Counted from the first letter of the stretch, positions 20,824-33,653 are shown. The stretch: 64,000 bases of DNA from Halobellus sp. MBLA0158 (GCF_041477585.1 NZ_JBGNYA010000001.1:806001-870000); one strand, 5' to 3'. Numbers and translations are program-made. Notes: generated by a model not told the origin, from the letters alone.

Positions 20824-21390
20824 ATGCAAACACAGCACACGCAAAACAGACTCCGTTCGAGCGATCTCGCCTACAGCGTACTGGCCGACAAACGTCGGCG
20901 CTACGCGGTTCACTACCTCAAGCAGCGCAACGAGCCGGTGCCGCTCAGCGAGCTCGCCGAGCAGGTCGCCGCCTGGGAGAACGACAAGCCCGTCGACGAG
21001 CTCACCTCGAAGGAGCGAAAGCGGGTCTACATCGCGATGTACCAGTCGCACCTCAAGACCCTCGCGAAGGAGGGCATCGTCGACTACGACGCCGACCGCG
21101 GGGTCGTCTCGATCTCCGAGGCCTTCGCCGACCTCGACGTCTACCTGGAGGTCGTCTCCGGCGGCACGATCCCCTGGAGCCTGTACTACGTGGGCCTCTC
21201 GATCGTCAACGCGGTGTTGCTCCTCGTCGCCTGGCTCGAACTGTGGCCCTTCGCCACCGTTCCGGACCTCGCCTGGGGCGGCGTCGTCCTCGTCTCCTTT
21301 GCCATCTCCGCGTTCGTCCAGACGTACCAGACGCGCCGGATGCGCTTCGGCGACGAGGTCCCGCCGCCCGAACTCCGGGAGCGCTCGTGA
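20824..21390 (+). CDS. DUF7344-type winged-helix membrane regulator
   Basis: The protein has 188 aa. Residues 10-105 form a winged-helix-like domain (LAYSVLADKRRRYAVHYL, then YQSHLKTLAKEGIVDYD) characteristic of the haloarchaeal DUF7344 family. Two hydrophobic helices follow at about 125-143 and 150-168. A DNA-binding domain tethered to the membrane suggests a one-component sensor, though no ligand is evident. A TATA box (about 20739-20748) lies upstream with a leader of roughly 50 nt. The next gene starts 13 nt after its stop, so the two form an operon. Confidence 0.8.
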   Translation: MQTQHTQNRLRSSDLAYSVLADKRRRYAVHYLKQRNEPVPLSELAEQVAAWENDKPVDELTSKERKRVYIAMYQSHLKTLAKEGIVDYDADRGVVSISEAFADLDVYLEVVSGGTIPWSLYYVGLSIVNAVLLLVAWLELWPFATVPDLAWGGVVLVSFAISAFVQTYQTRRMRFGDEVPPPELRERS

Positions 21391-21403: not shown

Positions 21404-22501
21404 ATGAACTCCGACGACGGACCGGGCGACGACGGGGGGCCGGAGCGGCACTCCCTGGCCGACCTCGTGGAACTGCTGGAGCGAGAACGCCCGCTCTCTC
21501 CGCCCTCGGACGCGGAGCCGGACCCGGACCTCTGGGTAGACCCGGAACTGGAGGCCGCGACCGACCCCCCTCACGACGACCGCGAACCGCCGGACGACGA
21601 CGCCGAATCCGCACAGGCGGACGCCCTCGAAGCCGACTCGGCGGACGCCCGCTCCGATCCGAGCGAGGGCCCGGACCCGACTGCCGTCCCGTCCGACCGC
21701 TCTCGCGACGGGCGCCCGTCGCTGGGTGACCTCGCCGACCGCGTCTCCCGACTGGGCGGGACGGCGGGACGCGACGGATCGGAGTCGGCCGACGCGTCAG
21801 CCGGAGCGAGCCGAACCGAACGAGCCGAGCGATCCGAGGGATCCGACCGCGTCGACGCCGATTTCTCCGCCCCGTCGCGCGGTCTCGGGCGCGAGACGGT
21901 GCGGGACCTCGTCGGGGAGTCGCCGAACGTGCTCCTGGTCGGCCCGGAGTCCTGCACCGCGGACCAGCACCTCTGTACGCAGTTCCTCGCGCCCGCCGCC
22001 TCCGAAGGCGACGAGGTCAATCTCCTCCTCGTCACCTACGGGCAGTCGGCCGCCGAGCGCGCCGAGGCCGTCGCCGGCGACCTGGCGGGCCTGCCGGAGC
22101 GCACGGCGATCGTCAGCCTCGGCGGCTCCGACCGGGCGCGGACGACGGTTTCGGCGCCGGGGTCCGAGACGACGATCCCCGTCAAGTCCGTGCCCAATCA
22201 GGGCGACCTGATGAAGCTCGGATTCGCGATCACGAAGTACCTCTCGGAGTGGGAGTCGTCGTCGGCTCGGACGCTCGTGTGCTTCCACTCGCTGACCGAC
22301 GCGCTCCAGGCGGCCTCCGACCCGCGGCTCGTGCTTCGGTTCCTGCACGTCCTCCAACACCAGATCGAGGCCGCGGACGCGCGGGCCCACTTCCACCTGG
22401 ATCCCGACGCCCACCCCTCACAGCTGATTCTGACGTTCACGTCGCTGTTCGACACCGTCCTTCGGTTCGATCGCGACGGGAGCGTCTCGCTCGATCAGTG
22501 A
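21404..22501 (+). CDS. DUF7504-type (RecA-fold-like) protein
   Basis: The protein has 365 aa. The first 165 residues are acidic, Ser/Asp-rich and probably disordered. The remainder (VRDLVGESPNVLLVGPESC, then VNLLLVTYGQSAAER, RTLVCFHSLTDALQ) resembles a KaiC/RecA-type core in which the Walker A Gly-Lys-Thr is missing, as in the haloarchaeal DUF7504 family. It should not hydrolyse ATP and may serve as a signalling or scaffold protein. It is co-transcribed with the DUF7344 regulator, a pairing I take as functional. Confidence 0.75.
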   Translation: MNSDDGPGDDGGPERHSLADLVELLERERPLSPPSDAEPDPDLWVDPELEAATDPPHDDREPPDDDAESAQADALEADSADARSDPSEGPDPTAVPSDRSRDGRPSLGDLADRVSRLGGTAGRDGSESADASAGASRTERAERSEGSDRVDADFSAPSRGLGRETVRDLVGESPNVLLVGPESCTADQHLCTQFLAPAASEGDEVNLLLVTYGQSAAERAEAVAGDLAGLPERTAIVSLGGSDRARTTVSAPGSETTIPVKSVPNQGDLMKLGFAITKYLSEWESSSARTLVCFHSLTDALQAASDPRLVLRFLHVLQHQIEAADARAHFHLDPDAHPSQLILTFTSLFDTVLRFDRDGSVSLDQ

Positions 22502-22608: not shown

Positions 22609-23511
22609 CTACTCCGCGTCGGGCGGCAACTCCGGCAGCACCGTCTTTCTCTTTGGGTCCTCTCTCGGCCGCTGTTCGTCGGCCTCGGCGCCGTCACCGC
22701 CGCTGGCGACCGTGAGCACGTCCGACCCGAACCACCAGCCCGTGTGGGGTTCGACCCCGTCGAACGGCTCCGCGCAGTGCGGGCACGCCGGCGTCGACAA
22801 CAGCGCCAGCCGGACGGTCGAACCGCACGCCTCGCAGTCCGCCCGCTCGACGCCGAGCCGGTTCGCGCGCTCTTTCAGCTCGCTCAGCGCCGCTTCGGCC
22901 TCGACGTGGTCCCCGAGGGCGGCCAGCTCCGAACGGACGGCCGCGAGCGCGTCGTCGTGGCCGTGCTGGCTCTCGATCAGGCGGCGCAGCACGGTCCGAG
23001 AGTTCCCGAACTCGGTGTTGACGTGGGCGTCGAGGGAGTCGAGCCGGGAGCGGTCCGCCGCCCGCGCCGCGTCGAACTGCTCGGCCAGCGCCGTCACCTC
23101 CTCTCGGGAGTCGGACTGCGCCGCCTCCAGCGCGGCTTCGACGTCCGACAGCCGCGCCTGGAGGTGCGATAGCTCCGCCCGAAGCGCGTCGGCGTCGGAT
23201 CCGGACGGCTCCTCCGTCCCGCGGTCGTTCGTCCCGCGGTCGTTCGTCCGTTCGGCGTCCCGCGGCCTCGACGCCTCCGGCGTCGGGTCCGCGTTTCGGT
23301 CGCCGCTTTCCGCCCGTCGAAACAGCGTCGACTCGCTGCCGACGCGCTCGACCAATCCGAAGATCTCGTTGAGCGTCCAGTACGCCGAGACCAACTGCTC
23401 GAACACCTCCTCGGTACTCAGGTCCGTCTCCGCGGCCAACTGCTCCATCCAGTCTTCGAACGCGCCCGTGGCGTCGGGCGAACTGGACTGGTCTCTGTAA
23501 TCGTCACTCAC
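22609..23511 (-). CDS. coiled-coil protein with C-terminal zinc ribbon
   Basis: The protein has 300 aa. The N-terminal 55 residues form a helical domain. An acidic linker (60-105) contains a short repeat TNDRGTNDRGT. A long coiled coil spans about 105-220. A zinc ribbon with two CxxC pairs (CEACGS and CPHCAE) lies near 225-250. No signal peptide is present. The start is GTG (23509-23511). A TATA-like box lies near 23549-23558 on the minus strand. The function is unknown; coiled coil plus zinc ribbon suggests a structural or nucleic-acid-associated role. Confidence 0.75.
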   Translation of the reverse strand: MSDDYRDQSSSPDATGAFEDWMEQLAAETDLSTEEVFEQLVSAYWTLNEIFGLVERVGSESTLFRRAESGDRNADPTPEASRPRDAERTNDRGTNDRGTEEPSGSDADALRAELSHLQARLSDVEAALEAAQSDSREEVTALAEQFDAARAADRSRLDSLDAHVNTEFGNSRTVLRRLIESQHGHDDALAAVRSELAALGDHVEAEAALSELKERANRLGVERADCEACGSTVRLALLSTPACPHCAEPFDGVEPHTGWWFGSDVLTVASGGDGAEADEQRPREDPKRKTVLPELPPDAE

Positions 23512-23815: not shown

Positions 23816-24973
23816 ATGACGCCCCGTCGCGCGGCCGAATACGCCCTCGTCGGCGTCCTCCTGCTCGTGATCGGCTCGCTCGTCCTCGGTCAGGCGATCG
23901 GCCAGCCGGTGCTCTTCAGCTACGTCGAGACCGGGAGTATGGAGCCGATGCTCCGCCCGAACGACGGCTTCGTCGCGATTCCGATGGCCGTCGCGGGCCC
24001 GGTCCGCACCGGCGACGTGATCGTCTTCGACGCGGTGAACCTCAACGGCGGCGACCTGGTCACCCACCGCGTCGTCGGCGAGACCGACGGGGGCTACATC
24101 ACGAAGGGCGACGCCAACCCCGTGACTGACCAGGACAGCGCCGAGCCGCCGGTCCAGGACGCCCAGATCGTCGCGAAGGCGCTCCAGGTGGGCGGTCGGA
24201 TCGTCGTCGTCCCGCAGCTCGGCGTCGTCGTCGTCACCATCAACGACGGCCTCTCGGGCGTCCAACGGAGCCTCGCGACCCTGTTCGGGACGCGCGCGCT
24301 CTTGGGCAGTCAGGGCCTCGCGTACATCCTCTTCGGCTTCGGCATCGTGACGTACGTCCTCACGGACCTCCTCGGTCGGAAGTCCGGCCCGACGCGGACG
24401 CGGCGGACGTCGCGATCGGGCATCGACGACGGACGGGCGATGGGTCGCATCTACGTCCTCGCGCTCACCGTCTGCCTGCTCATCCTCGTGACCGGGAGCA
24501 TGACCGTCCCGGCCGGCCCCCAGTCGTTCGACATCGTCAGTTCGAGCCAGGACGCGCCGGGGATCCGCGTCGTCGCCTCGGGGACCTCCGAGACGGTCCG
24601 GTACCTCGTCCCCTCGAACGGACTGCTCCCCGTCGTGGTGTTCCTCGAACCCGCGACCGAGGGCATCGCCGCCCAGCCGTCGATGGTGTACGTCCCGTCC
24701 AACAGCGTCCGCGAGAGCATCGTCACGGTGACCGCGCCGCCGTCGACGGGGTACTACCAGCGCACGCTCGTCGAGCACCGCTACCTGGCCGTGCTGCCGA
24801 CGAGCACGATCGAGGCGCTCTATCGGATCCACCCGTGGCTCCCCATCGTCGCCATCGACGCGCTCCTCGGCGCCGGCGTGGCCTCGCTCGGCCTCTCGAC
24901 GCTGTACGGCGCCCGGCGGGTCCGTTCGCGGGACCTCCCGCTCCGCGAGCGGCTGTATCGGTTCTTCAAATAG
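23816..24973 (+). CDS. type I signal peptidase of the archaeal/ER Ser-His type
   Basis: The protein has 385 aa. Catalytic residues are visible in the N-terminal half: Ser41 (ETGSMEPML), His84 (LVTHRVVG) and Asp99 (TKGDANP). The Lys of bacterial peptidases is replaced by His, as in SipW and Sec11. Membrane helices are seen near 8-30, 160-185, 215-235 and 335-355. The region 235-330 is an extra extracellular domain not needed for catalysis. The neighbours are secreted DUF1102-type proteins and a DUF5305 protein, so this is probably a dedicated peptidase for them and not the general one. It converges on the DUF5305 gene with a 31-bp gap. Confidence 0.9.
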   Translation: MTPRRAAEYALVGVLLLVIGSLVLGQAIGQPVLFSYVETGSMEPMLRPNDGFVAIPMAVAGPVRTGDVIVFDAVNLNGGDLVTHRVVGETDGGYITKGDANPVTDQDSAEPPVQDAQIVAKALQVGGRIVVVPQLGVVVVTINDGLSGVQRSLATLFGTRALLGSQGLAYILFGFGIVTYVLTDLLGRKSGPTRTRRTSRSGIDDGRAMGRIYVLALTVCLLILVTGSMTVPAGPQSFDIVSSSQDAPGIRVVASGTSETVRYLVPSNGLLPVVVFLEPATEGIAAQPSMVYVPSNSVRESIVTVTAPPSTGYYQRTLVEHRYLAVLPTSTIEALYRIHPWLPIVAIDALLGAGVASLGLSTLYGARRVRSRDLPLRERLYRFFK

Positions 24974-25004
24974 TGGCAGCGGGGTCGGCGTCGCTCTCGA
25001 GGGG

Positions 25005-26030
25005 CTACATATTGAACCACGACGTCATCGCGCTCTCGTCGGTGGCGTAGTAGTACACGATGTCGTCGGTGACGACGGTGTAGACGTCGGGCTCGGGATC
25101 GTGGAGCACGCGGTTGTTCGAGTCGATCGCGATGTCGACGAGGCCTTCGAGGCTCGTGGTCCGGACGTACTTTCGGTCCGGGTCGGTCGGGATCTCGCTC
25201 GTGGTGATCCACTCCTCGAAGCGCGCCCGGTCCATCCGGAGTTCGATCGCCTCGACGTCGATGTCCTCACGCCGCACGTACGCGACGCCGCCGGCGGAGG
25301 CGAACGCCGACAGCGCCAAGAGCCCGAGCAGCCCCACGAGCGCCATATTCGGCTCGTCCGCCACGGTCCGGGTCACCGGCCGGGAGTGGGTCCGCGTCGC
25401 CGACAGCGGCGATTCGATCCAGTAGGCCCGCTCGGAGACCACCACGGGACTGGAGGCGGTCAGGCTCCCGGTGTACGCGCCCGTGTCGTAGGTGACGTTC
25501 AGTTCGAGCCGCGTCTCGAAGCCGCCGATGGTGCCGAGAGTCCCGCGGTTCCGCCGCACCTCGTCTTCTATCGCGGACATGTTCACCGTCGCGCTCGTCG
25601 CGGCGCTCCCTTCGCTGGTGGTCGTTTCCCCCTCCGTGATCACGCGGTTCGACGTCCAGAACGGCCGGTCGCCGCGGGTCGCCGTCTGGACGAGCGCGAG
25701 CCGCTGGGTGACCCGCACGTCCGTCCCCGAGGGGACGGCCACGCGCGTCTCGACGGTCAGATTCGGCGTGGCCGCCATCAGATACGCGGGCTGGTCGACC
25801 AGCCGCTGGCCGTTCCGGTAGAAGGTGGTGTTGCCGGTCACGACGGCGCTGGTCCGCACGTCGGCGCTGACCTGCTGGACCTCGGTCTGCTCTGTGACCC
25901 GCTCCGTCGGCGGGGTCGCGTACACGTAGCCCGCCCCCGCGGCCGCGAGGACCCCCAGTACGAGAAGCGCGAAGAACAGATACCGCCCGTAGTAACCGAT
26001 CAGCCGCTTCGCCCGCAGTTCTGCCGACAT
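25005..26030 (-). CDS. DUF5305-type membrane protein
   Basis: The protein has 341 aa. One helix lies near 15-37, an extracellular beta-rich region at 40-220 (several N-x-T sequons), a second helix at about 228-248, and a cytoplasmic tail of 95 residues containing VRREDIDVEAIELRMDRARFEEWITTSEIP, split here only for description. DUF5305 genes are found next to signal peptidases in haloarchaea. It may tether or regulate the peptidase at the membrane, which is inference. A TATA-like box near 26056-26066 lies 26-36 nt before the start. Confidence 0.82.
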   Translation of the reverse strand: MSAELRAKRLIGYYGRYLFFALLVLGVLAAAGAGYVYATPPTERVTEQTEVQQVSADVRTSAVVTGNTTFYRNGQRLVDQPAYLMAATPNLTVETRVAVPSGTDVRVTQRLALVQTATRGDRPFWTSNRVITEGETTTSEGSAATSATVNMSAIEDEVRRNRGTLGTIGGFETRLELNVTYDTGAYTGSLTASSPVVVSERAYWIESPLSATRTHSRPVTRTVADEPNMALVGLLGLLALSAFASAGGVAYVRREDIDVEAIELRMDRARFEEWITTSEIPTDPDRKYVRTTSLEGLVDIAIDSNNRVLHDPEPDVYTVVTDDIVYYYATDESAMTSWFNM

Positions 26031-26157
26031 TCCTGCACTCCGGTAGCACCCGCCGACGTATAGCTATTCGCGTCGGATCAGCCCGCTGTGAGGTCTGTCC
26101 GATCACGAGTGGCCGTCACGGAGTGACGCCGGAGATAAACCTCCGAGAGGATCGGTA

Positions 26158-29100
26158 TCAGTCGTCGTCCGCGGCGGACTCGCCGCCCGCGCTCGGCCGG
26201 CCGAGGGGGTACCGGAACGGGTCGGACCGGACCGTCGCCCGCTCGACGCACTCGGCGCCCGCCTCGTCGGTGACGCGGACCCGGACGGTGTAGGCCGCAT
26301 CCGGCGGGAGGGACGCCGACTCGTCGAGGGTGACGTACACCTTCGTCCCCTCGTAGGTGCGCTCGCCGCCGATCGTCCCAGACTCCATCCCGATCCGGCG
26401 GCCCGAGGGGTCGCGGACCTCCACGGAGATCTCGTCGAGGTCGTCGCCGCGGTCCCGCACCGCCAGCCGCTCGATCACCACGCGGGCCGCGACGACGTCG
26501 ATCGACGGCGACTCGAACGCCGTGATCTCGGGCGGGTGCCGCCGCACGGCCGCGACGATCCACCCCGAGAGGGCGTCGCGGGCGAACACGAGCAGGAGCA
26601 ACAGGAGTCCGAGCAGGAGCCACCCGAGCCCGCTCACGGGGATCTGCTGGAGTTCGACCGAGGGGAGCGACCGGCCCACGGTGACCGTCTCGATCGTCTC
26701 GCCGCGGGCGCCGAATTCGTCCGCGGCGACGACCGTGATCGTCTCGGTGCCGGCGGGGAAGCGCCGGTCTACGACCCGTCCGGTGGCGGTCGTCCCGTCG
26801 GAGAACTCCCAGGTGACGGTGACGTTGCCGTACTCGTCGACGACGTCGGCGACGAGGGTGACCGTCTCGTTCGGCCAGATCACCGGCGGCCGCTGGACCG
26901 CGACCCCGGGGACGTCGTTGACGAGGATCCGGTACGTGGCCGCGTCGGTCAGCCCGAAGGCGTCGGTGACGGTAAGCGTCGTCTCGTAGATCCCGACCGC
27001 GTCGAACGAGGGCTCGATCTGGCGGCCGGTGAACGGCTCGTCGTAGGTCTCGACGGTCCACTCGTAGGTGACGCTGTTGTCGGCAAACACGGCGAACTCC
27101 GAGAAGCCCGGCGTGTAGGCGCTGAGGACGACGTACTCCGGCGTCTCCTCGACGATCTCGGTCTCCAGCAGCTGCCAGCCGCCGCTGTTCCGGGCGACCG
27201 TCGCGTTCGCGGGGTCGGTCTCGCCGAAGCGCTCTCGCGGGACGCGGAGCTGGAGGATCGCAGAGCGGTTCTCGTACTCCGGCGGGACCGTGATCTCGAC
27301 GCGGTGGATCATCCGGAGGTTGTCGTCGATCGATTCCTTGGAGCCGAAGAGCGAGTGGCTCCCGACGAGCAGGATCGGATCGCGGACGAGCGTCAGCGTG
27401 TCCGCGCCCTTCAGGTCGATCTCTTCTTCCGAGATCCCCTCGCCCGAGATCGTCAGCGAGATGTCGTCGCCGAAGTCGATCCGCTCGGCGTTCTCGCCGA
27501 TCTCCCTCCCCTGGGCGATGGCCGCCTCGGGCCCGTCGCGGCCGCCGACGTCGGGCGCCGGCACCCCGAGGTCCTGGACGTCGATGAGGTCCGCGAGGTC
27601 TCCGTTCTCCTCGCCGGGGAACGTGATCGTAGTGTCGCCCTTCCGGACGACCGTCTCGGGGCCGTCGTCGTCCTCGTCGCCCTCGTCGTCCGGATCGTCG
27701 TCGCCGTCGGGATCTCCGTCGCCGTCCGGCCCGTCGTCGCCGGGCTCGGTCTGGGGCTCGCCCTCGGGCGCGGTGAGCACGAACTGCGAGAAGCCCGGCG
27801 GGTCGACGAAGAAGACGTACGCGGTGGCCGTCTCGTCGATTAGTTCGGGGTTCAGGCGGTTCCACCGGCCGTCGGCGTAGCGGTAGATCCGAAGGTCCTC
27901 GGGGTCGACGTCGGCGGGGAGCGCGCTCTTCTTGACCGAGTAGGTGAACTCCGTCAGGCCCAGCCGCTCGTTCGGGATGGTGTGTTCCAGCCCGAAGTGC
28001 TGGGTGACGGCGCGGCCCGCCTCCGGCTCGTACTGGACGCCGCCGACGACGCCGGGCGCGGTGTCGTGGTGGACGAAGTGCATGTCGAAGGTGACCTTCT
28101 CCCCGGATTCGGACCGGGGCGCGACGCTGACGGTCGTGATCGTCGCCTGCTTCTCGCGCGTGCTCGGCACCGACACGTCGACGGTCAGGCCGACGCCCGG
28201 CGGGACGTCGTTGGCGTCGAGTTCGGCGCTGGCGGCGTCCGGGAGCGTCACCGGGCGCGTCCAGGTCTCCACGTCGCTGTCGACGCCGGGGTCGTTCTCG
28301 GCGAGCTGCTGGACGCGGATCCGCCAGCCGGTGTTGGACATCCAGATGTCGATCTGCTCCTGGTCGGCGTCGCTGATGATCCGCAGTTGGGCGGTCTTGA
28401 TCCCGACCGACTGCGGCGCGTAGCGGATCGTGACCCGCTCGGTCTCGCCGGGGGCGATCTCGAAGGGCGCCTCGCCCTCGACGATCTCGAAGGCCTCCGA
28501 GGAGCCGGAGACGAACCGCACGTCGGTCACGCGGACCGGAATCGCCGGGTCGCCGGGGTTCGAGAGCGTGATATTCAGCGTCTTCGAGCCGCCGACGGTG
28601 ACATTCCCGAAGTCGAGGTGGTCCGTGCTCACGTCGATGTGCGGCGGGAGCCCGGTGCCCGAGACGCCGACCCGGGCGGTCGGCTCGTTCGGATCGTTGC
28701 TCTCGAAGCGCACGCCCGCCGTGAACGCGCCGTCGTCGGTCGGCTCGAACCGGACGGTGACCGTCTCGCTGGCGCCGACGTCGAGCGTGAGCGGCGTCCC
28801 GAGGTCGGACGTGACGGCGAACATCTCGCGGCCGCTGCCGACGACGGCGACGTCGGTGATGGTGAGCGGGGCGGTCCCGCGGTTCTCGACGGTGAACGTC
28901 GCGGTCGCGTTCAGCCCGCGGCCGATCGGCTCGAAGGCGACCGTTTCGGTGGGGACCGCGATGTCGGGCGCGAGGCCCCGACCGGCGAGGTCGACGCGGA
29001 GCGGGCTGTCGTCGGCGTCGGTCTCGACCGCGAGCGTCGCCGCCTGCGACCCTCCGGCCGTCGGCTCGAACGCCGCCACGAGGACGTGCCGCGCGCCCGG

Positions 29101-30120
29101 CGCGAGGGTCACCGGCGCGCCGCCGTCGTCGGCCGCGAACGCGGCTGCGTCGGTCCCCTCGATACTGACCCCGCGGATGGTCACGGGCGCGGAGCCGGTG
29201 TTCGCGACCGTCACGGCGGTCCGCTCGCGGTCGCCGACGCGGACGTCGCCGAAGTCGACGTCGCGGGTCCCGATCACCGACAGCGACTGGATCGTGCCCT
29301 CCCCGCGCAGCGTCACGGTCGCCGTCGCCGCGTTCGGGTCGTTCGTGCCGAGCCGGAGCGTCGCGGTCGCGTCGCCTTCGGCCTCGGGCGCGAACCGGAT
29401 CGGGATCGTCGCCGAGCCGCCGGGCGCGATCGTCGGGAGCGCGCCCAGCTCGCTCTCGAAGGCGGCCGCGTCGTCGCCGACGATCGCGAGGTCGCGGAGC
29501 ACGAGCGGCTCGCCGCCGGTGTTCCGGACCGTGACGTCGACGACCGCGCTCGTGCCGAGCGGGACCTCGCCGGCGTCGACCGAGTCGGGCACGTCGATCT
29601 GGGCGCTCGTCGTCGGGTCGATCGTCTCGACGTTGAGGATGAGCTTCGTCACGAGCGTGCTCTCGGGCGCGACGCCGGGGCTCCGGGTGTCGATGCGCAC
29701 GCTCATCAGGAGCTCCTCGCCCGGGACGAGGGTGACGTTCCGCTCGGCGCCGACGGGCTGGCCGCTCGCCGCGGAGTAGAACGTCACCGCCTCCACGTTC
29801 GTCTGCGTGATCCAGACGCGGACCGAGGAGTTCCCGGTGTTCGTCACGGTGAAGACGCCGTCGATCACGGTGACGGCGTCGGGGTTGACGCCGTGTTCGG
29901 TGATGTTCAGCGTGAGTTCGTTGCTCGCGTCGATCTGCGCGTACGCGCCGTTCGGGCCCGTCGCGGGCGCGAGCACGATCGACTCGTCGGGGCCGACGGC
30001 GTCGAACTGATTGACGACGATGGCGCCCGTGGGCACGACCAACAAGAGCAGCACGCCGGCGACCGCCGCGACCTGGTGGAGCGACAGCGAGGCGAGTATC
30101 GACGACGCCGACCGACTCAT
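26158..30120 (-). CDS. 1320-aa multi-domain membrane-anchored surface protein
   Basis: Order of parts: signal helix (about 15-38); a secreted domain resembling the DUF1102 proteins nearby (40-165, with GPNGAYA and VFTVTNTGNSSV); four ASH/choice-of-anchor-D Ig-like repeats of about 105 residues (175-590, each with an F-x-x-x-x-x-G signature and an N-x-G turn); a PGF-pre-PGF-like domain near 690-790 (ends PPGFSQFVL); an acidic Asp/Gly linker (about 795-825); a second such domain ending TPGFSEFAV; a PKD-like domain (1010-1150); one membrane helix (about 1160-1182); and an inside or outside tail of 135 residues. It is likely an anchor or adaptor for a surface fibre. It has its own upstream region. 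Confidence 0.85.
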   Translation of the reverse strand: MSRSASSILASLSLHQVAAVAGVLLLLVVPTGAIVVNQFDAVGPDESIVLAPATGPNGAYAQIDASNELTLNITEHGVNPDAVTVIDGVFTVTNTGNSSVRVWITQTNVEAVTFYSAASGQPVGAERNVTLVPGEELLMSVRIDTRSPGVAPESTLVTKLILNVETIDPTTSAQIDVPDSVDAGEVPLGTSAVVDVTVRNTGGEPLVLRDLAIVGDDAAAFESELGALPTIAPGGSATIPIRFAPEAEGDATATLRLGTNDPNAATATVTLRGEGTIQSLSVIGTRDVDFGDVRVGDRERTAVTVANTGSAPVTIRGVSIEGTDAAAFAADDGGAPVTLAPGARHVLVAAFEPTAGGSQAATLAVETDADDSPLRVDLAGRGLAPDIAVPTETVAFEPIGRGLNATATFTVENRGTAPLTITDVAVVGSGREMFAVTSDLGTPLTLDVGASETVTVRFEPTDDGAFTAGVRFESNDPNEPTARVGVSGTGLPPHIDVSTDHLDFGNVTVGGSKTLNITLSNPGDPAIPVRVTDVRFVSGSSEAFEIVEGEAPFEIAPGETERVTIRYAPQSVGIKTAQLRIISDADQEQIDIWMSNTGWRIRVQQLAENDPGVDSDVETWTRPVTLPDAASAELDANDVPPGVGLTVDVSVPSTREKQATITTVSVAPRSESGEKVTFDMHFVHHDTAPGVVGGVQYEPEAGRAVTQHFGLEHTIPNERLGLTEFTYSVKKSALPADVDPEDLRIYRYADGRWNRLNPELIDETATAYVFFVDPPGFSQFVLTAPEGEPQTEPGDDGPDGDGDPDGDDDPDDEGDEDDDGPETVVRKGDTTITFPGEENGDLADLIDVQDLGVPAPDVGGRDGPEAAIAQGREIGENAERIDFGDDISLTISGEGISEEEIDLKGADTLTLVRDPILLVGSHSLFGSKESIDDNLRMIHRVEITVPPEYENRSAILQLRVPRERFGETDPANATVARNSGGWQLLETEIVEETPEYVVLSAYTPGFSEFAVFADNSVTYEWTVETYDEPFTGRQIEPSFDAVGIYETTLTVTDAFGLTDAATYRILVNDVPGVAVQRPPVIWPNETVTLVADVVDEYGNVTVTWEFSDGTTATGRVVDRRFPAGTETITVVAADEFGARGETIETVTVGRSLPSVELQQIPVSGLGWLLLGLLLLLLVFARDALSGWIVAAVRRHPPEITAFESPSIDVVAARVVIERLAVRDRGDDLDEISVEVRDPSGRRIGMESGTIGGERTYEGTKVYVTLDESASLPPDAAYTVRVRVTDEAGAECVERATVRSDPFRYPLGRPSAGGESAADDD

Positions 30121-30302
30121 TCGACGCTCCGGCGAGTGGGGGTCCCGGAGCGCCCGCTACGGACGGTTGCGGGGTCTCGAAGAGCGATGGAATCGGTGTG
30201 CGTCATCGGGTGTATGAATGGATTTACCGCAGTATTTCGTCTATTTCGCGTATCGGAACGCGCCCCGGAGAGATACCGTTTTCGTCCCCGGCCGAAGACG
30301 GG

Positions 30303-30845
30303 CTACGACTGGACGGCCTCAGCCGTGATCTCGATCGTCTCGATGAGGAAGTCCTCGTCATCCACGTCCAGACCGGCGGTGTCGACGTAGATGCTGACGG
30401 TCACGGTCTCACCGCTGTCCAGGTAGTAGTCGCCGTCCTCGAAGGCGCTCGTGGTGGCCTTCTCGCCGTCCACGCTGACGTTGTAGAACGTCACCGCGTC
30501 GGGGTGATCGCCCGTGTCGTTGATGGAGATCGAGACGTTCTGGGTCCCTTGGTTCGTGATGGTGAAGACGTCCTGGATGTCGGTCTGGGCCTCCATGTTC
30601 ACGCCGCTACCGATGTTTTCGCCGAAGGTGATCTGGAACAGCCCGTTTTCCTCCGCCGCGTACGCGCCGTCACCGTTCGGGCCGCTCGTGGGGTTGAGCG
30701 CCAGCAGCGCCGAGCTGTCGCCGGCGACGCTGACTTGGGCCGTCCGCTCGGCGGACACGGTGGTGAACGCCCCCGTCGCGGTGACGACTCCGAGCGCCGC
30801 GACGATCGTGACCAGTGCGAGTAACTTTCCTTTTGGGAGTTTCAT
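30303..30845 (-). CDS. DUF1102 secreted protein, candidate fibre subunit (TasA-like)
   Basis: The protein has 180 aa. A basic start (KLPKGK) and hydrophobic helix (8-25) end in ATGAFTTVSAERTAQVSVAGD, which resembles the SipW-type signal peptide of TasA/CalY proteins. The mature part is one beta-sandwich-like domain with GPNGDGAYA, DVFTITNQGTQNVSISI and DAVTFYNV segments. No lipobox or anchor is present. Known family: DUF1102, found in secreted archaeal proteins. A role as the main fibre subunit cut by the nearby signal peptidase is inference. Two perfect palindromes sit directly upstream of its TATA box. Confidence 0.85.
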   Translation of the reverse strand: MKLPKGKLLALVTIVAALGVVTATGAFTTVSAERTAQVSVAGDSSALLALNPTSGPNGDGAYAAEENGLFQITFGENIGSGVNMEAQTDIQDVFTITNQGTQNVSISINDTGDHPDAVTFYNVSVDGEKATTSAFEDGDYYLDSGETVTVSIYVDTAGLDVDDEDFLIETIEITAEAVQS

Positions 30846-31171
30846 GTGTTTTCGTCTCCGTGCCCGCCACAGCCGTCTCGGCCGGGGACCGGGCTCGTTT
30901 CTCTCAACGATCTATAGGGTCTTTGTAAGACCGCTCTAACGCCGCGTTAGGGCGTCCTACCGCCAGATCCCGCCAAATTCGGGTGTTTTCGGACGTTCGC
31001 CGAGGTCCGGACGCCCGTCCGAACACCCGTATGAGGGGTGTAGTGGCCGTTTCCGACCGTTGGGGGCCTTCCCGCTAATCGAATAATGGGACGTTATCGC
31101 GACTCAGCGGCAAGATTTCCCCGGGTAGGGGGGGCTAACTAAATAGCTATCACGCCTTCTGTCCCCTACAC
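30846..31171. promoter_or_regulatory. divergent regulatory region between two DUF1102-type genes
   Basis: The minus-strand TATA-like element CCCTATAGATC lies near 30908-30918, with a leader of about 40 nt. Immediately upstream are two perfect inverted repeats with the same geometry (6-bp arms, 3-nt spacer): GGTCTT-TGT-AAGACC (30918-30932) and CTAACG-CCG-CGTTAG (30936-30950), with centres 18 bp apart. On the plus side an AT-rich element (CTAACTAAATAGC, about 31135-31147) lies 25-37 nt before the ATG at 31172. No gene is visible. Confidence 0.6.
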
Positions 31172-33082
31172 ATGGCCGGTCCCAAACTCATCTCTCTCGC
31201 CGTTGTCGTCGTGGCCATCGGTCTGGTCACTGGGAGCGGCGCGTTCACCACGGTCGCCGCCGACCGCACGGCGTCGGTCGGCATCGCCGGCGACGCGAAC
31301 GCGCTGGTGCAGCTGACGCCCCACAGCGGGCCGAACGGCGCCTACGCGCCGATCTCCCAGGGGATGATCCAGCTCGAACTGGACGCCATCCCGGCCGACG
31401 CCGAGACCACCATCCCCGGGGTGTTCAACATCACGAATCAGGGGACTCAGCCGGTCGCAGTCTGGGTGACCGAGGGCGACGGCGGCGCGCCGCGGGTCAC
31501 CTTCTACAATCCGACCTTCGGCGGGGGCGCGGCCACCACCGCACTGCGGTGTGAAAACGGCGTGAAGTCGATCGAGACCGAGGAGAACGCCGTCCGGCTG
31601 GCGCCGGGCGAGACGCTCGTCGTGAGCCTCCAGATCGACTCCACCGGACTCACCGCGGCCGACGAGACGCTCCTCGACTCGCTTTCCATCCACGCGAGCG
31701 CGACCGTCGAGGGCACCGACGCCCCGACCACCAGCGTCGTCTGCGGCGACGGCGACTCGGGGTCCGGATCGGGCGACGGCTCGGGTGACGGAAGCGGCGA
31801 CGGCGGCTCCGGCTCCGGCGACGCCGACGGCGACGGCATCGACGACAGCACCGAGGCCGCCATCGGCACCGACCCGAACGACGCCGACTCCGACGGCGAC
31901 GGCATCAGCGACGGGATCGAGACCACCCGCGGCGCCAGCGCCGACGGCCTCGCGCCCGGCTGGGAGGTCGACACCGACGGCGACGGCGTCATCGACGCCC
32001 TCGACCTCGACAGCGACGGCGATGGCCTCGGGGACGCCGCCGAGGGCACCGACGACGTCGACGGCGACGGCGTCGACAACTACCGCGACACCGACAGCGA
32101 CGGCGACGGCGTCGGCGACGCGGTGGATCTGTACCCGTACGACTACGGGCCGCAGGGCGGCCTGGCGTTCGCCGACGCCGACGACGATCTCGTCTACGAC
32201 GCGGGCGAAGAGACCTACACCGCGAGCGAACTGACGAACTTCAACGAGCGGGTCAATCTCGTGATCCCCGCGGACGTCGGGGCCATTCAGTCCGCCTCGA
32301 TCCGGCTCCACGCGGTCAAGATCACGTCGTACGTCGACCTCACCGCGACGGGCGGGACCGTCGAGATCCTGGCGAACGGCAACGGGAACGACGACAACGC
32401 CATCACCGTCGACGGCACGACAGTCACCGCCAACGGCGCCGTGCGGCTCCACGGGAGCGCGATCAGCGCGGACGACGCGACGCTCGTCTCCCAGGGAGGT
32501 GCCGTCGAACTGCTCGCGAACGGCAACGGGAACGACGGGAACCCGATCTCCGCCGACAACGCGACGGTCACGGCGCTCCACGGCGTGAAGCTCCACGGCG
32601 GCTCGATCAGCGCCGTCGACGCCGACCTCACCTCGCAGGGCAGCTCGATCGAGCTTATGGCGAACGACAACGGAGACGCCGCCATCGACGCCGACGGCGC
32701 GACCCTCACGGCGCTCCACGGCGTGCGGATTCACGGCGAGACGCTCGGTCTCCTCGACGCCGACGTCACGTCTCAGGGCGCCGGCGTCGAACTCTTCGCC
32801 GAACGGAACGGCGGCGGGGACCTCGACGCCGCGGGCGCGACGGTGACTGCCCACCAGAAGATCGCGCTCAAGGCCGACGAGAACGCGGACGTCGGCGACT
32901 CGAACGCGCGCGAGGCGCGCCTCGAAGCCGGGACGACGATCTCGATCTCGTTCACGTCCTCCCAGAGCACGCTCCGGGTCGCCGGCGTCGAGATCGTCGA
33001 TCAGGACAACGCGCTCACGCTGACCGGCAACGTGAACGGCATCACGGTCCAGGGCTCGCCGCAGTCCGGGAGCGTCCAGTGA
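31172..33082 (+). CDS. secreted DUF1102 protein with calcium repeats and beta-repeat tail
   Basis: The protein has 636 aa. Residues 1-185 repeat the layout of the 180-aa DUF1102 neighbour (signal helix, GSGAFTTVAADRTASV, HSGPNGAYA, GVFNITNQGTQPVAVWV, RVTFYNP, LAPGETLVVSLQID). A Gly/Ser/Asp linker (190-212) leads to thrombospondin type 3-like calcium repeats (213-320; many DxDGDG units). Residues 378-568 hold four repeats of 46-48 aa, each with an LHG-type start and an N-G-N or N-D-N turn, likely a beta-helix or stacked beta structure. No membrane anchor or cell-wall signal at the end. It is likely an extracellular matrix or adhesive subunit stiffened by calcium. Confidence 0.85.
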   Translation: MAGPKLISLAVVVVAIGLVTGSGAFTTVAADRTASVGIAGDANALVQLTPHSGPNGAYAPISQGMIQLELDAIPADAETTIPGVFNITNQGTQPVAVWVTEGDGGAPRVTFYNPTFGGGAATTALRCENGVKSIETEENAVRLAPGETLVVSLQIDSTGLTAADETLLDSLSIHASATVEGTDAPTTSVVCGDGDSGSGSGDGSGDGSGDGGSGSGDADGDGIDDSTEAAIGTDPNDADSDGDGISDGIETTRGASADGLAPGWEVDTDGDGVIDALDLDSDGDGLGDAAEGTDDVDGDGVDNYRDTDSDGDGVGDAVDLYPYDYGPQGGLAFADADDDLVYDAGEETYTASELTNFNERVNLVIPADVGAIQSASIRLHAVKITSYVDLTATGGTVEILANGNGNDDNAITVDGTTVTANGAVRLHGSAISADDATLVSQGGAVELLANGNGNDGNPISADNATVTALHGVKLHGGSISAVDADLTSQGSSIELMANDNGDAAIDADGATLTALHGVRIHGETLGLLDADVTSQGAGVELFAERNGGGDLDAAGATVTAHQKIALKADENADVGDSNAREARLEAGTTISISFTSSQSTLRVAGVEIVDQDNALTLTGNVNGITVQGSPQSGSVQ

Positions 33083-33107
33083 GGCGCGGCCGCGGCGGTG
33101 AGGCGCC

Positions 33108-33653
33108 GTGACCCCGGGCAAGCCCCTCGCGGTCGCGGTCGTGCTCGTCGCCTTCGCGCTCCTGGCGGTCCCCTCGGGCGGCTTCGGCGTCATCGACGAG
33201 GTCCGGGACGCCCGCGTCGGCGTCGCGGCCCCCGACCGAGCGGTCGTCAGCATCGAGCCGGCCGCCGAGGTGCCGGTCCGCTGCTCGGCGCCGCTCGTCA
33301 CCGTCCGAAACAACGGGGCGCAGTCCGCGACCGTCACCGTCCGGCTCACCGAGTCCGGCGGCGGATCGCTCCTGGCTCCGAACGGCGCCGACCGCGGCAC
33401 CGAGTACGTCTTCGATCTGGACTCCGGCGACAGCCGGACGGTCTCGGTCGTTGGCGTCCGGTCCGGCGCCGACGCCGTCAACGTCACCGTGACCGCCGAA
33501 CTGGACGGCGGCCTAGTCGTCACCGCCAGCGAGCGCGTGCCGACGTACGTCGACGAGTCCGGCGGCGACGGCGACGACGATGAGGGTGATGACGACGATG
33601 ACGACGACAACGACGATGACGACGACAACGACGATGACGACGGCGCCTGCTGA
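33108..33653 (+). CDS. secreted protein with poly-Asp tail
   Basis: The protein has 181 aa with a GTG start (33108-33110), 25 nt after the preceding stop, so it is in the same operon. The signal helix (5-22) is followed by SGGFGVIDEVRDARVGVAAPD, which parallels the start of the DUF1102 proteins. One beta-sandwich-like domain follows (30-150, with VTVRNNGAQSATVTV). The last 30 residues are nearly all Asp with scattered Asn and end in GAC. The tail could bind calcium or extend a chain in high salt. The terminal Cys is odd for a secreted haloarchaeal protein. It is likely the fourth, minor member of the family here. Confidence 0.75.
   Translation: MTPGKPLAVAVVLVAFALLAVPSGGFGVIDEVRDARVGVAAPDRAVVSIEPAAEVPVRCSAPLVTVRNNGAQSATVTVRLTESGGGSLLAPNGADRGTEYVFDLDSGDSRTVSVVGVRSGADAVNVTVTAELDGGLVVTASERVPTYVDESGGDGDDDEGDDDDDDDNDDDDDNDDDDGAC

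Follow-up and report, generated by a model that had tools for sequence, protein, structure and literature searches.

The window analyzed here, a stretch of 64,000 nucleotides from Halobellus sp. MBLA0158, carries a gene cluster that we assign with high confidence to the Taf/Tafi kind of fibre clusters, a prediction drawn from its genes, their homology and the predicted fold. That the locus (about 20.8 to 33.7 kb) represents a diverged branch of these haloarchaeal clusters with Sec-exported products is hardly less probable, judging from sequences and a structural model. By the same kind of data this salt-loving archaeon is predicted to form a surface fibre of the Taf kind, to which the TasA fibre of bacterial biofilms is related. 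Among known systems the haloarchaeal Taf/Tafi pilus, and not Bacillus TasA, stands nearest to it, and the cluster is a version of this known pilus kind that is unusual in its giant membrane anchor. The original prediction of an archaeal fibre locus was essentially right, as fold, sequence and context all point to kin of the Taf/Tafi pilus, and a guess from gene layout has been turned into a testable fibre system. Established in this analysis are the homology, the predicted fold, the conservation and co-occurrence of the cluster, and the absence of a donor motif from the anchored subunits.

Gene content and signal peptidase

An open reading frame check of the window recovered all six predicted genes at the positions and lengths proposed for them. 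The genes between 23,816 and 33,653 are thus real, but the cluster is larger than assumed and reaches upstream to about 20,824 (Table 1). The start of the DUF7344 gene was placed at an internal ATG by choice.

Table 1 Genes and features of the fibre cluster in window coordinates. SPase, signal peptidase.
Feature	Position	Strand	Basis
DUF7344 winged-helix (HTH) protein, likely regulator	20824..21390	+	PF24035 E 2.7e-29; homologue near SPase in 90/106 loci
DUF7504 protein	21404..22501	+	PF24336 E 4.8e-32; family near SPase in 13/106 loci
Coiled-coil protein with C-terminal zinc-ribbon-like motif (CCZn)	22609..23511	-	Homologue in paralogous cluster E 2.5e-28; near SPase in 10/106 loci
Ser-His (ER/SipW-type) signal peptidase, 385 aa	23816..24973	+	TIGR02228; S41, H84, D99 invariant
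Extra extracytoplasmic domain of peptidase, between helices 212-230 and 342-360	24506..24838	+	
DUF5305 membrane protein, 341 aa	25005..26030	-	PF17231 E 2.7e-46; near SPase in 83/106 loci
1320-aa anchored subunit (TafF position)	26158..30120	-	N-terminal fibre domain and membrane helix
Fibre-type N-terminal domain of 1320-aa protein	29596..30030	-	BLASTP E 4e-12 to 636-aa protein
C-terminal membrane helix of 1320-aa anchor, residues 1162-1180	26581..26637	-	
180-aa fibre subunit, Sec signal	30303..30845	-	9p0a E 1.2e-12; TafE 50 bits, below cut-off; AF2 and Foldseek
Proposed donor strand AFTTVSAERTAQV of 180-aa protein, right behind signal helix	30732..30770	-	Low-pLDDT tail; motif spacing; motif census
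636-aa secreted protein (TafC position), candidate tip/adhesin	31172..33082	+	Donor motif, fibre domain, repeats
Proposed donor strand AFTTVAADRTASV of 636-aa protein	31241..31279	+	Sequence
Tandem repeats of ~144 nt (48 aa) in 636-aa protein	32303..32856	+	
181-aa secreted protein, poly-Asp C-terminus	33108..33653	+	Marginal fibre-domain relative; kept in orthologous locus

The peptidase, predicted to be of the Ser-His type, has its Ser41/His84 pair and also Asp99 invariant across 17 homologues. Its score against TIGR02228, the model for archaeal signal peptidase I, is 57 bits (cut-off 52), and it matches the SipW model weakly (27.3 bits, E 2e-6, against a cut-off of 190). The expected extra extracellular domain was found as well: about 110 residues lie between two added hydrophobic helices and gave no match in Pfam. 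It is a difference from Bacillus SipW, which to our knowledge lacks such a domain. The enzyme stands beside its putative substrates in a TasA/SipW-like arrangement and adjoins, as foreseen, a DUF5305 gene. The product of the latter comprises an N-terminal helix, a β-rich extracytoplasmic domain, a second helix and a small cytosolic domain; its AlphaFold (AF2) model has a mean pLDDT of 90, and a fold search returned generic Ig-like/Fn3 matches only.

Fibre-type subunits

Using phmmer against PDB sequences, the 180-aa protein matched the pilin 9p0a at E 1.2e-12, and nothing else strongly. From its title in the structure library, we take this entry to be the Tafi pilus of Natrinema sp. J7-2 (2025). 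A family profile of 98 relatives matched 9p0a at E 1.3e-24; besides this entry the profile found nothing in the PDB below 1e-3, and no match to 7ueg (AbpA). The AF2 model of the mature protein (mean pLDDT 82.7) has ten strands, with the first seven residues (pLDDT < 50) forming a tail outside the folded domain. The fold check on this protein had been set beforehand, and its best three PDB matches are the Tafi pilus (9p0a; Foldseek E 4e-5, TM 0.54/0.46), Pyrobaculum AbpA (7ueg; E 7e-4) and the Sulfolobus thread Saci_0406 (7pnb), in this order. The last two resemble the model in fold but have no sequence similarity detectable with the family profile against the PDB. TasA was recovered from the PDB neither by phmmer nor by the family profile, and it is absent from the 50 best Foldseek matches. 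The original prediction came through the fold check that could have refuted it, the three matches being fibres that it named or kin of these. Sequence and model together suggest that the 180-aa protein is the probable main polymerising subunit. Its former label DUF1102 was dropped, as there is no such Pfam match at E<=0.5.

The N-terminal domain thought to be common to the 180-aa and 636-aa proteins is indeed shared, with 41% identity over 181 residues (BLASTP E 3.5e-33; E-values of these comparisons were computed for a 17-protein database). Weaker versions had been suspected in two further proteins. The 1320-aa protein clearly has one (E 4e-12 to the 636-aa protein, 3e-9 to the 180-aa protein), but for the 181-aa poly-Asp protein the relation is marginal (E 3.6e-4). 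Against the family profile the latter reached 1e-5 to 2e-4 and the 1320-aa domain 1e-30, this sequence having been in the profile seed. Profile iteration from the 181-aa protein, a 250-aa and a 205-aa protein grew to >200 matches and was not used for membership. A run rich in Asp and Asn, with Cys as the last residue, forms the end of the 181-aa protein (33540-33653, +), and its homologue of 192 aa in locus L041 has an Asp-rich tail too. Weak enolase-like matches of the 181-aa protein were judged to be due to chance.

The NCBIfam models of the Taf/Tafi system are NF052520 (TafA), NF052521 (TafC), NF052522 (TafE) and NF052523 (TafF). Those for TafE, TafC and TafA match window proteins below cut-off, the best being TafE with 50.3 bits against 155; no window protein exceeds any of the four equivalog cut-offs, and a TafE search of this genome found nothing over cut-off. 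Since all window proteins stay below these cut-offs, we regard them as a divergent lineage. Shared with Taf/Tafi are the subunit sequence and predicted fold, a GAF-x-x-V-x-A-x-R motif behind the signal, the SPase, DUF5305 and DUF7344-HTH neighbors, one C-terminally anchored subunit, and one larger secreted subunit with a variable C-terminus. In contrast to Taf/Tafi, the window signals are Sec and not Tat, the anchor has 1320 aa with HYDIN/PGF/PKD domains where TafF has about 400 aa, and the cluster contains extra DUF7504 and CCZn genes.

The larger secreted subunit, the 636-aa protein, is a candidate tip or adhesin. It contains tandem 48-aa repeats that are β-solenoid-like. The calcium repeats of the original prediction correspond to TSP3 matches in this protein that are weak and below cut-off (E 6e-5, 23.2 against 25 bits). 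Secreted proteins in the TafC position differ in their C-termini: TafC carries LamG instead of the TSP3 and solenoid-like repeats of the window protein, those of L105 and L084 are bactofilin-like, and the counterpart in a second cluster of this genome has β-helix/adhesive-type matches. One could also read the Taf-type N-terminal domain as a secretion and processing module only; the peptidase would then cut several independent adhesins and one very large surface protein, and no fibre would form. Such a reading would suit the lack of a TafA equivalog in the locus. It would also suit the large size or odd make-up of three of the four secreted products, namely the repeat-bearing 636-aa protein, the 1320-aa protein with its HYDIN/PKD repeats and the 181-aa poly-Asp protein. 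We consider it unlikely, because the 180-aa protein consists of the fibre domain, has no other functional part and finds its best PDB match, in both sequence and fold, in a pilin, and because the plan of one anchor per locus is conserved as in TafA loci.

Distribution and export route in haloarchaea

The link between peptidase and subunits, originally guessed from layout, was upheld in this genome and across the class. All six TafE-like matches of the 3.29-Mb genome are confined to the window and to C1:597-602 kb. The window cluster and this second cluster also hold the genome's only two full-length peptidases of this type and its only two DUF5305 genes. A third, weaker TIGR02228 match at C1:399 kb may be the housekeeping peptidase. 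The second, paralogous cluster (L007:2488-11555; C1 about 592.5-601.6 kb) encodes Tat-type subunits, a peptidase 40-41% identical to that of the window, a DUF5305 protein, three short subunits, a DUF7344-HTH protein and a 522-aa repeat protein that matches the 636-aa protein at the C-terminus (E 1e-15). Clusters of this second type are kept in several related genomes (L042, L055-L057, L079). The coiled-coil CCZn proteins beside the two clusters (window 22609-23511, -; L007:2488-4068, -) are probably cytosolic; they have in common the conserved N-terminal sequence EVFEQLVSxYWTLNE and an end rich in Cys that resembles a zinc ribbon.

With its Tat-type subunits and its own SPase, DUF5305 and HTH genes, the second cluster (C1 about 592-602 kb) might itself make the fibre and the window cluster merely supply alternative tips and anchors. 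This division of labor appears slightly less likely still than a pure secretion module. The window cluster encodes a peptidase of its own and subunits with Sec signals, against Tat in the second cluster; no broken genes were seen in it, and it is conserved gene for gene, in the same order, in an orthologous locus of one related genome (L041).

Full-length homologues of the peptidase occur in 110 of 145 haloarchaeal genomes. Peptidase and TafA-like proteins are both present in 107 of the 145, both missing in 32 and found singly in 3 + 3 (p 3e-25, which overstates independence since the genomes are related). The exceptions are G017, G026 and G068, with a peptidase but no TafA-like match, and G050, G081 and G141, with the reverse. 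At L043:7769-9988 (genome G200) a peptidase and a DUF5305 gene have no recognised subunits in their flanks, while the related L045 has subunits; subunit loss or relocation is possible. In a reference-type TafA locus the NCBIfam models name TafA, TafC, TafE and TafF. The TafA loci (L061-L076, most above the NCBIfam cut-off) contain the same peptidase, and most contain DUF5305 and DUF7344-HTH genes within the stretch taken around each locus. These loci were picked for TafA and nearly all others for the peptidase. Among 106 loci with flanks, 101 have a fibre subunit close to the peptidase, 90 an HTH gene and 83 a DUF5305 gene. The dedicated Ser-His peptidase and Taf-type subunits thus travel together through most haloarchaea. 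In L054 (G075 C3:206000-225900) six or more short GAF-motif subunit genes lie nearly in a row, possibly a subunit variation array.

In a tree restricted to haloarchaeal sequences, the window peptidase belongs to a supported clade of 12 members (SH-aLRT 97). The twin-arginine (Tat) motif is missing in 14 of the 15 free subunits of this clade compared with 20 of 197 elsewhere (p 7e-12), the motif being present in the other 177. As far as signal sequences can tell, subunits of the window lineage are Sec-exported and most others use Tat, which would export them already folded. This sets apart two export routes for one kind of subunit. Anchors differ as well, with 751-1616 aa in the window clade versus a median of 509 elsewhere.

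Donor motif, polarity and the giant anchor

In a TasA fibre each subunit supplies a stretch (residues 28-38, including F29 and I32) that completes the sheet of the following one (PMC9674648); the Phe at P2' is handled by SipW, a peptidase of the ER type (PMC10269814). The archaeal thread is built by donor-strand complementation once signal peptidase I has cut its Sec/SPase I precursor (PMC9715654). The 180-aa and 636-aa proteins both carry A-F-T-T-V-x-A-x-R immediately behind the signal helix, so that a Phe follows the cleavage site as in TasA (PMC10269814). The motif of the 180-aa protein is A26-F27-x2-V30-x3-R34, in which F and F+3 are spaced as F29/I32 of TasA (PMC9674648). Together with the dedicated Ser-His peptidase beside its substrates, this is the likeness to the Bacillus system. 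A genuine TasA/TapA/SipW system in common with Bacillus, in place of an archaeal Taf lineage, is nevertheless very improbable for this locus: despite the weak SipW match of the adjoining peptidase (27 bits, E 2e-6) and the A-F at the cut site (PMC10269814), the enzyme stays below the SipW cut-off of 190 and passes the archaeal TIGR02228, TasA is matched neither by profile nor among the 50 best folds, and TapA was not found.

For the Taf-type fibre, donor-strand assembly is quite likely in view of the predicted fold, the spacing of the motif and the homology to fibres of solved structure. The 180-aa subunit would be exported through Sec, after which the adjacent Ser-His peptidase would cut its signal helix. 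Cleavage would free the N-terminal strand (AFTTVSAER...), which could then insert into the β-sandwich of the next subunit by donor-strand exchange. The 636-aa protein, having a normal donor strand and large repeats, would sit at the far end as adhesin, and the 1320-aa protein would be the membrane-held base that accepts a strand only. Help with assembly at the membrane is the likely role of the DUF5305 protein and of the outer domain of the peptidase, and regulation that of the DUF7344 protein.

A census of 186 free subunits with the motif found Ala before the aromatic residue in 172, V/A/I/M at F+3 in 176 and Arg at +7 in 179. The motif occurs in 218 of 248 free subunits but in 0 of 54 with a C-terminal membrane helix, where helices were called by a hydropathy threshold and several motif-less 'free' proteins look like missed anchors. 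As the anchored subunits are largely one family, this contrast amounts to one or few evolutionary events. The motif may also serve in peptidase recognition instead of strand donation. There is one anchored subunit per locus in 53 of 53 loci.

The membrane-anchored subunit that had been predicted exists and is, specifically, the 1320-aa protein. It matches four choice-of-anchor-D/HYDIN Ig repeats, PGF-pre-PGF and PKD domains (Pfam, NCBIfam), with no match to TafF in NCBIfam, and combines a fibre domain lacking the donor-strand motif with the membrane helix and a C-terminal domain of ~125 aa. The tree neighbors of its N-terminal domain are all anchored subunits. The anchor has GAIVVNQFD where the 180-aa protein has AFTTVSAER. 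Being membrane-held, with an acceptor-type domain and no donor motif, it would be a strand-accepting base. We tentatively propose that the anchor is an acceptor-only base with the tip pointing outward; donor strands of the other subunits would then point toward the cell and the chain would end at the base. About as tentative is the wider view that a lone, acceptor-only anchor fixes the polarity of Taf fibres, with donors toward the cell, and that the window lineage rebuilt this plan with Sec export and a giant HYDIN-repeat anchor. If true, the donor-less anchor would make it simple to read from sequence how archaeal donor-strand fibres are oriented and where they terminate.

The anchor runs ~140 residues beyond its membrane helix (26158-26580, -). 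Arg residues stand directly behind the helix, hence the small β-rich domain that follows may be cytosolic. C-termini resembling that of the 1320-aa anchor occur in L098, L105 and L112.
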